DNA of 34,268 bases, taken from assembly GCA_944372025.1 (NCBI GenBank), contig CALVYE010000004.1, positions 1 through 34,268 on the forward strand, in the 5' to 3' direction. Each line of letters starts with the position of its first letter. Position 1 is the first letter of the stretch. Both the position numbers and the translations under genes were made by a program. This DNA comes from an uncultured Bacilli bacterium (GTDB lineage Bacteria > Bacillota_I > Bacilli_A > RF39 > UBA660). Positions 30,713 through 34,268 of the stretch are shown one piece after another. The notes beneath the pieces were generated by a model. The model saw only the letters and a list, made by a program, of their open reading frames with translations. It was not told the DNA's origin and did not search any database.

Positions 30713-30740
30713 AGGTGATTAAAATTTCACCTTTATTTTT
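30705..30740. terminator. Bidirectional terminator between metK and the coiled-coil gene
   Basis: AAAAATAAAGGTGA (30705-30718) and TCACCTTTATTTTT (30727-30740) are perfect 14-bp complements with an 8-base loop. T-runs close the stem on both strands. It contains the metK stop and touches the stop of the convergent gene (30739-30741). Confidence 0.85.
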
Positions 30741-32835
30741 ATCTTACATAATTTCTAGCTTTTAACCAATCAACAATATATTGTGATTCTTGTGCTGCTG
30801 ATGGAACTGATCCATTAGTACTTACATATGAAGTTTTCCATGCTTGATAATCTGTTTGTAAATTAGAGATTACATCTGCGTTAATTTCAGTAATTGTAAG
30901 ATTAGAAATTGAAGTTTGAATATTATCTAATTTACCATTTGCAGTATCTAGTTTTGTTTCAAGTGAAGAAACTTTTGAACTAATAGAATTTAAACGTCCA
31001 AATATAGTATCATTTGAAACATTATCTGTAGATACTCCAATTGCTGAGCTTACACCACTAACTGTAGTATTAATTAATTCAGTTTTAAGTGCTAAATTTG
31101 ATATAGAAGTATTTGCTAGTTCTACTTTACCATTAACTGTTCCTAAACTATTAATTGCATCGCTTATATTGCTATTAATTAATGTTAAACTATTATCTCT
31201 AATACCTAAGATTAAGTTAGATATAGCATTTTGATTTGCATCTACACTATCAAATCTTGTAGCTAAAGCTGTTTGATTAGTGTTCATATTAGTATCAATA
31301 ATATTAAATCTAGAAGTAATTGCTAATTGATTATCATCCATTTTATTTTCAATTCTTGATAAAACTGTTGATAATGCTTCTTGATTTAAATTCATATTTG
31401 TATTAATACCATCTAATTTTGTATTTAACGCTGTTTGATTTTGATCTATTCTTTCTAATACTGTAGAAATTAACGAATCTACGGTATTAAATCTATTTTG
31501 TAATTCTGTTTGATATGCTAATGCGTTAGCATCAATACTATCAAATCTTGAAGTTATTGATTCTTGATTTTCATCAAGTGTACATTCAATTCTTGATAAA
31601 ACCGTTGATAATGCACTTTGGTTACTATCCATATTAGCATCAATATTGTTTAATCTAGAATTTAATGCTGCTTGATTATTATCGATGTTAGTATCGATAT
31701 TGTCTAGTCTAGAATCTAATACTGTTTGGTTGTTATCCATGTTAGTATCAATATTATCTAATCTAGTATTTAATGCTAATTGATTATCATTCATTCTATT
31801 TAACACAGTAGTTAGTAGTGAATCGACATTATTAAATCTATCTTGTAATGCTAATTGATATGTTGCTGCATTAGTATCAACATTATCAAATCTAGAAGCT
31901 ATTGCTGTTTGATTTGTATCAAGTGTATTTTCAATTCTTGATAAAACTGTTGATAATGCACTTTGATTATTATCCATATTAGCATCAATAATATTTAATC
32001 TTGCATTTAAAGCTAATTGATTTTCATCTATTCTATTTAACATAGTAGAAATTAATGAGTCTACAGTATTAAATCTATCTTGTAATGCTAATTGATATGC
32101 TGCTGCGTTAGCATCAACGTTATCAAATCTAGAAGCTATTGCTGCTTGATTTTCATCAAGAGTATTTTCAATTCTAGTTAAAAATGTAGTTAATGCTACT
32201 TGATTAGCTTCCATATTAGCATCGATAGTATTTAGTCTTACATTAAGAGCTAATTGATTTTCATCCATTCTGTCTAATACAGTAGCTAGCAATAAATCTA
32301 CAGTATTAAATCTATCTTGTAATGCTAATTGATATGCTGCTGCGTTAGCATCAACATTGTCAAATCTAGAAGCTATTGCTGCTTGATTTTCATCCATAGT
32401 AAGAATAATACTATTTAAAATCATTTCTAAAGCTTCTTGATTATCTCTCATGTTTTTATCGATAATGTTAAATCTTGTTTGTGCTTCTAAAAATCCATTA
32501 TTAACAACAGTAGTTAAATCGTTAATTTTTGAATTTACATTTGAATTTACTCCATTAATTTTATTATTTAATGAATAGTAAATTGATTCTTGTTTTGAAT
32601 TTACATCATCGATTTTTGATTCAGTATTTTGACTTAATTTAGCGATATTTTCATTTGTTTCATCATTTAATTTTTTTGCTTTAGAATCATTACTGTCAAT
32701 TTTTTCTAAAACATTTGAAATACTTTCTCCCTCAATATTAAATATTTTTACTAATGAAATTATTCCAATTAATAAAGATATAGCAATTATAACAATTGCA
32801 ACAATATTAAGAGTCTTTTGTTGTTTATTTTTCAT
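30739..32835 (-). CDS. Membrane-anchored coiled-coil rod protein with 79-residue repeats
   Basis: 698 residues. Residues 10-33 are a membrane helix after a basic start (MKNKQQK), so the rest is probably outside. Residues 40-145 are helical linker. Residues 146-497 are four tandem repeats: 146-224, 225-303, 304-418 and 419-497, of 79, 79, 115 and 79 residues, with a partial fifth to about 538. Each unit reads as 18+25+18+18 residues, the 18-mer being NQxALxxRLxNIDxNMxx. The third unit has two extra 18-mers. The tail (540-698) is Ser/Asn/Leu-rich helix and a compact end (DYQAWKTSY to WLKARNYVR). One cysteine only (418). RBS AAGGAG before ATG 32835, 22 bp after the foldase gene. Looks like a surface stalk; the binding partner is unknown. 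Confidence 0.85.
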   Translation of the reverse strand: MKNKQQKTLNIVAIVIIAISLLIGIISLVKIFNIEGESISNVLEKIDSNDSKAKKLNDETNENIAKLSQNTESKIDDVNSKQESIYYSLNNKINGVNSNVNSKINDLTTVVNNGFLEAQTRFNIIDKNMRDNQEALEMILNSIILTMDENQAAIASRFDNVDANAAAYQLALQDRFNTVDLLLATVLDRMDENQLALNVRLNTIDANMEANQVALTTFLTRIENTLDENQAAIASRFDNVDANAAAYQLALQDRFNTVDSLISTMLNRIDENQLALNARLNIIDANMDNNQSALSTVLSRIENTLDTNQTAIASRFDNVDTNAATYQLALQDRFNNVDSLLTTVLNRMNDNQLALNTRLDNIDTNMDNNQTVLDSRLDNIDTNIDNNQAALNSRLNNIDANMDSNQSALSTVLSRIECTLDENQESITSRFDSIDANALAYQTELQNRFNTVDSLISTVLERIDQNQTALNTKLDGINTNMNLNQEALSTVLSRIENKMDDNQLAITSRFNIIDTNMNTNQTALATRFDSVDANQNAISNLILGIRDNSLTLINSNISDAINSLGTVNGKVELANTSISNLALKTELINTTVSGVSSAIGVSTDNVSNDTIFGRLNSISSKVSSLETKLDTANGKLDNIQTSISNLTITEINADVISNLQTDYQAWKTSYVSTNGSVPSAAQESQYIVDWLKARNYVR
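31222..32400 (-). repeat. Tandem in-frame coding repeats (237-bp unit, 54-bp subunit)
   Basis: Units at 32164-32400, 31927-32163, 31582-31926 and 31345-31581, with a partial copy to about 31222. Lengths are 237, 237, 345 and 237 bp. The 345-bp unit contains two extra 54-bp subunits at 31624-31731. Units 1 and 2 share long identical stretches (for example QAAIASRFDNVDANAAAYQL in both), indicating recent duplication or homogenisation. Confidence 0.9.
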
Positions 32836-32857
32836 ACTTTCTTACTCCTTCTTTTTA

Positions 32858-34132
32858 CTATTTAATCTTTAGCTTTTCAAAAGCATTTTGATAAATAATA
32901 GAAATTTTTTCTAAACTTTCAGAAACATTCTTTAAAAGTTTCTCTTCCCTTTTTTTCTCATAAACAACACTAAGTTTTGCATCATCTAATTCTTGTCTTT
33001 GAATAATATGAATTGCATACTTAGTTTTAACTTCACCAATATCACCAGTATTTAAATTGTCTACCATTCCCTCAATTTCTTCTAATAAGTCGCCATTTTG
33101 ATAATACATGTCATATGGAGGTTCTTTAGCGACAGCATCTTCACTATATTTTTTAATTAAATCATCAAAGTTAACTCCACTTTGTGCTTCTTCTAATATA
33201 GCTTTTGCCAATGCTTCTTTTTGATTGATTGTCGTTTCGCTTAAGCTTTCTTTTGTTGTAGAATCTACGGTTGCTAAAACAATCTGTTTAATTTTTTTAT
33301 AATTTGCATAGTATTCACTTCGTGCTTCTTCTTTTTCTTCATCAGTTAAATCATTTACTTTACCCTCAGAATATAAAGCGTCATATATTAATTTATACAA
33401 TTTATCGGTTTTTGCCATTTTATCATAAGATTCTTCAGTTGTATTATTTTTCTTAAGGAACTTCTTAAAGGCACTTTCACCACCTAAATTATTAATATAC
33501 TCTTCTTTTTCTTCTTCTAATTCTTTTAGAGCTTCATCTGTAAGAGTAATATTGTTTTCTTTTGCAATGCGATTAACAGAAGCTGCAATTTTTATTTCTT
33601 CTACGGTTTTTTCTTTTAAATATTCTCTAATAGTCATATCAGATGTACTGTCTACTTGAGTATTCAAAGTTGCTTCGGGTAAATCGGTATTATCTTCTCC
33701 GAAATGATTGTATTTAACTGAATAAAGATAAATCATGAAATCACTACTTGTATAATCACTCCCATCAATAGTAATAACTACTTTATTTTTTGATACTATT
33801 GGCATTATTACGAACAATAATGTTAAAGATACGACTACTGCTGTTAAAATTGCAATAGAAATAAACTTATTTTCTTTTATTGTTTTAGTAATTTTTTTAT
33901 ACATTTTCACCAAACCCTTGTTATTCTTATTTTTCTTTTCTATCAGTCTTTTAGTTGTTTTTTGTTGCTTTGAATTGTTTGTTTTTGCTTTACTAGATTT
34001 AACTGTTTTTTTTGCTCCACTAGTTTTAGCATTACTTCTTTTTTTAGGTTTAACTTCTGTATTTTCTTTAGTTTTTCTAGTGCTTCTAGTTTTTGAACTT
34101 ATTACTTCATTTTCTTTTTTCGTATTTGCCAC
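32858..34132 (-). CDS. Membrane-anchored parvulin-type peptidyl-prolyl isomerase (PrsA/SurA-like)
   Basis: 424 residues from GTG 34132. The open frame runs to 34189, but the leader structure and GGGGGGTGA (34146-34138) select the GTG five bases later. Residues 1-88 are a Lys/Thr/Ser-rich basic cytoplasmic tail, 90-112 a membrane helix, and the rest is outside: a SurA-N-like helical chaperone part (MIYLYSVKYN, then VNRIAKENNITLTDEAL) and a C-terminal rotamase segment (KKIKQIVLAT, VNFDDLIKKYSEDAVA, GDIGEVKTKYAIHIIQRQ). It should fold exported proteins next to the membrane. Bacillus PrsA is a lipoprotein; here anchoring is by a helix with a long basic tail, and no lipobox is present. First gene of an operon with the coiled-coil rod, which may be its client (inference). 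Confidence 0.85.
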   Translation of the reverse strand: MANTKKENEVISSKTRSTRKTKENTEVKPKKRSNAKTSGAKKTVKSSKAKTNNSKQQKTTKRLIEKKNKNNKGLVKMYKKITKTIKENKFISIAILTAVVVSLTLLFVIMPIVSKNKVVITIDGSDYTSSDFMIYLYSVKYNHFGEDNTDLPEATLNTQVDSTSDMTIREYLKEKTVEEIKIAASVNRIAKENNITLTDEALKELEEEKEEYINNLGGESAFKKFLKKNNTTEESYDKMAKTDKLYKLIYDALYSEGKVNDLTDEEKEEARSEYYANYKKIKQIVLATVDSTTKESLSETTINQKEALAKAILEEAQSGVNFDDLIKKYSEDAVAKEPPYDMYYQNGDLLEEIEGMVDNLNTGDIGEVKTKYAIHIIQRQELDDAKLSVVYEKKREEKLLKNVSESLEKISIIYQNAFEKLKIK

Positions 34133-34134
34133 AA

Positions 34135-34194
34135 GTTTCACCCCCCAACTTAGACAACTAATATAACGTGAGTGAGTGAAACCCCACATTATAT
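34135..34194 (-). promoter_or_regulatory. Structured 5' leader with loop complementary to the RBS
   Basis: In the transcript AUAUAAUGUG (34194-34185) pairs with CACGUUAUAU (34170-34161), 10 pairs with one wobble, around a 14-base loop. Nine loop bases GUUUCACUC (34182-34174) are complementary, with one wobble, to GGGUGAAAC (34143-34135), which is the Shine-Dalgarno and the spacer before GTG 34132. This allows a pseudoknot or an alternative helix that would hide the ribosome binding site. I match it to no known riboswitch class. Confidence 0.6.
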
Positions 34195-34224
34195 TATGAT
34201 ATATGAAAAGAAATAATGCTTATT

Positions 34225-34253
34225 ATTCTAATTAAAAAGTCGTTTTTTGTCAA
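34225..34253 (-). promoter_or_regulatory. Strong sigma-A promoter of the foldase-rod operon
   Basis: Minus strand: consensus -35 TTGACA (34253-34248), a 17-bp spacer, -10 TAGAAT (34230-34225). Predicted start near 34218, giving a leader of about 85 nt, the longest leader predicted from the promoters I found in this window. Confidence 0.85.
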
Positions 34254-34268
34254 TAATTTTGGTATTGA

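Follow-up and report, generated by a model that had tools for sequence, protein, structure and literature searches.

A structured leader with an operon-specific 5'-terminal motif, possibly stabilising its mRNA, precedes a foldase/coiled-coil operon in an uncultured Bacilli bacterium

Stabilising mRNA leaders of Bacilli are known from ermC, aprE and the STAB-SD of cry3A. Two other described groups bring a pseudoknot to the beginning of translation: the preQ1 class I riboswitches, small H-type structures in which the Shine-Dalgarno (SD) sequence lies in the second helix, and leaders of the ribosomal-protein type, such as those of rpsO and infC-rpmI, which are pseudoknots covering the translation start. 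The leader analysed here precedes a two-gene operon in a stretch of 34,268 nucleotides (the window) from an uncultured Bacilli bacterium. Like the stabilising leaders, it combines a 5'-proximal structure with a strong SD in a host that possesses RNases J and Y, but it also bears an operon-specific 5'-terminal motif, and stabilisation is in this case a prediction; to our knowledge, no such motif has been described for ermC, aprE or cry3A. As in preQ1-I riboswitches, its hairpin loop can pair downstream with the SD region; however, against the small consensus of that class it has a stem of 12–14 bp and a loop of 14 nt, its operon contains no queuosine genes and the pairing is not conserved. No match to the preQ1-I covariance models of Rfam was obtained, neither at the gathering threshold nor at E<=5 on the leader. 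A pseudoknot over the translation start would be the feature in common with rpsO and infC-rpmI, although the operon lacks a known RNA-binding protein gene, the Lys-rich tail of the foldase being a speculative candidate only.

The operon lies on the minus strand, with the foldase gene first and the gene that we call rod second, preceded by a TTGACA-17-TAGAAT promoter and the leader (Table 1). The N-terminal tail of the foldase is rich in lysine and cytoplasmic. Start positions of the orthologs back GTG 34132 as its start codon, while another in-frame codon, ATG 34189, falls within the stem, lacks an SD and is not conserved. Residues 1–11 (MANTKKENEVI, 34132–34100) are the same in the window and in the orthologous locus L032, while the remainder of the tail has diverged. 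The genome, from a family of Bacilli, measures 1.16 Mb in 98 contigs and codes for RNase Y and two RNase J-type proteins; the names of related metagenome-assembled genomes suggest that the host is a gut bacterium. The window contig stops at 34268, and its last 77 bases (34192–34268) are identical to the beginning of another contig (G000:C71:1-77, L027), which runs on into a divergent upstream gene encoding a SpoVB/MurJ-like flippase. Such an exact 77-base overlap is what de Bruijn contigs show at a branch, so that an assembly branch point adjoins the 5' arm of the hairpin and strain variation close to the hairpin is possible.

Table 1. Features of the foldase/coiled-coil operon and its leader, in window coordinates
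Feature	Position	Strand	Basis or remark
Sigma-A-type promoter TTGACA-17-TAGAAT	34225..34253	-	11/12 consensus; -35 and -10 kept in orthologous leaders, spacer not
Operon-specific 5'-terminal motif CATTATTTCTTTTC, predicted ~+1 to +14 of the mRNA	34205..34218	-	Leader conservation and pattern search
Leader hairpin, 12-14 bp stem, core 34161-34170 / 34185-34194, loop 34171-34184	34159..34196	-	Sequence and MFE fold
Loop segment GGGUUUCACUC complementary to the RBS	34174..34184	-	Complementarity to 34143-34133
Shine-Dalgarno and spacer GGGGGGUGAAACUU	34133..34146	-	34143-34133 is the complement of the hairpin loop; mostly unpaired in nested ensemble (predicted)
Membrane-anchored PpiC/PrsA-like foldase, 424 aa	32858..34132	-	PF13616 E 1.1e-9; PrsA chains in PDB
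Early codons GAAAAUGAAGUAAU, predicted partner of the 5' motif (34217-34205)	34101..34114	-	Fold; 13 pairs, one bulge
'Rod', long repetitive, probably coiled-coil membrane-anchored protein, 698 aa	30739..32835	-	Second gene of the operon

With the promoter at 34253–34225, a leader of about 86 nt is predicted before GTG 34132. Since inferred leaders elsewhere in the genome cluster mainly at 10–30 nt (21 of 32 genes with strong promoters), that of the foldase is long for its genome, in agreement with the initial annotation. The 10-pair stem and 14-base loop described there are also present. The core stem (34194–34185 with 34170–34161) includes one U-G pair; it reaches 12 bp when extended outward to 34196/34159, and further inner pairs bring it to 14 bp in the minimum free energy (MFE) fold. 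The 121-nt region around the hairpin folds 4.4 standard deviations better than shuffles (z = -4.4). In the nested fold the SD is placed in the loop of a second hairpin, the stem of which contains the GTG codon.

Among 386 genomes of the family, a clear foldase ortholog was found in nine others (44–57% identity), with two further orthologs in genomes G435 and G458; a search of viral contigs and genome contigs yielded none beyond those from the family genomes. In every ortholog examined a counterpart of the coiled-coil gene follows the foldase gene, while the upstream neighbours vary, which suggests that the two genes move as a unit with their promoter and leader. The distribution of the operon (window 30739–34132; L030–L038, L111, L112) is patchy in the family, in differing neighbourhoods, suggestive of a surface-protein cassette that is mobile or often lost.

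Eight independent orthologous leaders besides that of the window were compared, at 43–57% protein identity. TTGACA and a -10 box are present in all of them, and the strong SD that is expected of a stabilising 5' leader of Bacilli, of GGGGG/GGAGG type, in nearly all. The span from TTGACA to the start codon ranges from 80 to 121 nt, and most leaders carry a 7–10 bp hairpin between motif and SD, in the same place but of unrelated sequence and other size. Taken together, the orthologous leaders show more structure than shuffles do (window excluded, Stouffer P 3e-5, an optimistic value as are all combined P values here, the leaders being related by descent). This structure, together with the operon-specific 5' motif, makes it probable that the long leader is functional, as the initial annotation had proposed from its length, though a function through pairing of the loop with the ribosome binding site (RBS) finds no support beyond the foldase leader of the window.

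A conserved part of the leader is the motif at its predicted 5' end. Mean pairwise identity of the motif reaches 96% in the four closest leaders versus 38% for the spacer between -35 and -10; the remaining leaders carry TATTTC, or a sequence close to it, at almost the same distance from the -10 box, a distance fixed at 8–10 nt in nearly all. The 14-mer CATTATTTCTTTTC occurs once in the genome, the overlapping contig end being counted as the same place. A search of the 386 genomes with the pattern TTGACA-N16-18-TANAAT-N8-10-TATTTCTT gave matches in nine, eight of them at the foldase operon and one before an RNase J-like gene (G070), and its reversed control gave two matches. The pattern also caught one more ortholog (L121, in genome G311), clipped by a contig end and missed by the protein search, and serves as a working marker of the operon. 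On these sequence comparisons, the motif is an operon-specific mark at the predicted mRNA 5' end.

For eight of the nine leaders, folding predicts that the first 14 nt are paired at 0.5–0.9. Compared with shuffled surroundings, the combined P is 0.001, or 0.006 with the window left out, a post hoc and exploratory result. The predicted partner is leader sequence in L033, L036 and L037, and early codons in the window, L030, L032 and L038. The pairing of motif and early codons beats mononucleotide and dinucleotide shuffles (P about 3e-4; like the preceding test, this one was devised after the data were seen). As a special feature, this long-range pairing was rejected, being significant neither against synonymous recoding nor against swapped partners (P 0.11).

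We tentatively favour, with a probability of about 0.4, a leader with an occluded 5' end and a strong SD that sets high or long-lived expression by stabilising the mRNA against RNase J. A strong sigma-A promoter would read the two-gene foldase/coiled-coil operon into an mRNA whose leader keeps the fixed 14-nt 5' motif, a hairpin free to vary in sequence and a very strong SD. Base pairing, either within the leader or with early codons, would hide the 5' terminus, and a 30S subunit would stay bound at the strong SD; the two together would hinder attack by RNase J from the 5' end as in leaders of the ermC/aprE type. We infer from the sequences the transcription start at the motif, the pairing of the 5' end and the stabilisation of the mRNA. 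This explanation is favoured because the orthologs have promoter, 5' motif and strong SD in common but differ in the sequence and length of the hairpin, because pairing of the first 14 nt is predicted for most leaders and RNase J and Y genes are present, and because the orthologous leaders are more structured than shuffles. Against it stand locus L031, with a predicted free 5' end (0.24), locus L111, where 5'-end pairing is no better than in its own shuffles, and the lack of significance of the motif-codon pairing.

Occlusion of the 5' end would not by itself explain why the motif keeps both its sequence and its distance from the -10 box, a constancy that suggests sequence-specific recognition. 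The main alternative to stabilisation is that the motif acts at the DNA level or through a specific factor. The stretch from +1 to +14 could be an operator or a promoter-escape/initial-transcribed signal of the operon, the hairpin being secondary. Its constant offset from the -10 box, its high conservation beside a diverged spacer and its near-exclusive occurrence at the foldase operon in 386 genomes would fit such an element; on the other hand, no linked regulator gene accompanies the operon, and no other promoter with the motif was found in the sampled 61% of the genome (contigs other than the window). The latter result makes a general regulator unlikely and led us to reject the motif as a regulon operator or a general initial-transcribed sequence; a DNA-level element of this operon we consider unlikely as well.

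The initial annotation had instead placed the function in the loop, as an H-type pseudoknot masking the RBS. Its base pairs were confirmed: nine consecutive pairs, one of them G-U, join GUUUCACUC (34182–34174) of the loop GGGUUUCACUCACU (34184–34171) to GGGUGAAAC (34143–34135) just upstream of the start codon, and wobbles extend them to eleven (34184–34174 with 34143–34133). Loop and SD are both predicted to be mostly unpaired in the nested ensemble (about 0.7–0.97) and could therefore meet. A rough estimate for the pseudoknot, -30.9 versus -31.9 kcal/mol for the nested MFE at 37 C, is roughly isoenergetic, and more favourable at 20–25 C than at 37–42 C, as with any helix; energetically, the pseudoknot is thus possible in the modelled window sequence. 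A lineage-specific translational control might then operate, in which the loop pairs with SD and spacer and lowers initiation until a ribosome, a protein, a ligand or heat opens the structure. The orthologs argue against it. Loop-RBS pairing does not exceed five pairs in the other leaders. In L031, the closest in hairpin sequence, loop and 3' arm could pair with the SD, though only in two pieces of eight and five pairs (P 0.015–0.055), and L032, of the same genus, shows no comparable pairing. Covariation on a MAFFT alignment of the leaders, in which the hairpin part is mostly gaps, was no more than in shuffles, and a search of the ortholog leaders for a conserved SD-sequestering segment of any sequence gave a combined P of 0.07–0.12 without the window. 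The comparison of homologous leaders that the initial annotation had itself proposed, looking for conserved or compensated pairing, found neither in the eight orthologous leaders and so went against the pairing, and we regard this translational control as improbable. The pairing would be a lineage-specific modulator or an accident, and could be conserved at closer range, among strains of one species.

How often such a match arises by chance bears on the same question. When a stem of 8 bp or more was required, a match of equal strength was obtained in 0 of 1000 shuffles of the foldase leader and, with the leaders of all genes shuffled, in 1 of 1806, and the foldase leader ranks second among 602 genes (ORFs in 0.71 Mb of the window genome, stem >=8 bp). 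Unusual as the match is, these figures give a chance expectation of ~0.5 such leaders per genome of roughly 1000 genes, and any UCAC-containing loop pairs with SDs of GGUGA type. The strongest match of the sample is on the minus strand of L076 (2360–2450), before a 113-aa ORF, where the loop AAAATCACTTATAA forms 13 pairs with the SD/start AGGTGATTTTATG. Taken on its own, the loop-RBS match is probably a product of chance, a conclusion compatible with the stabilising leader. That the whole leader has no special role, an AT-rich hairpin with a UUUCAC loop merely happening to fit the GGGUGAAAC RBS, would agree with this expected frequency, with the better score of the L076 leader and with an initial annotation on the lookout for such patterns, but is doubtful given that one leader combines an extremely strong stem with an extreme loop pairing, and that its context is conserved, structured and marked by an operon-specific 5' motif.

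It is more improbable still that the 5'-terminal motif is read by a dedicated factor, which might be the Lys-rich tail of the foldase itself, acting autogenously, with the loop-SD pseudoknot adding translational control in this lineage. The proposal of a small translational riboswitch or thermosensor was not borne out, the leaders giving no match to Rfam riboswitch or thermometer families and no covariation, and the operon containing no ligand-linked gene.

A testable explanation thus takes the place of a riboswitch reading that was attractive but unsupported. From genome to genome the operon takes along its promoter and a diagnostic 14-nt 5' motif, an indication that control lies at the mRNA 5' end and not at the hairpin loop. 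If confirmed, this would be a 5'-end element specific to one operon, in a gut lineage that is uncultured and has a small genome.
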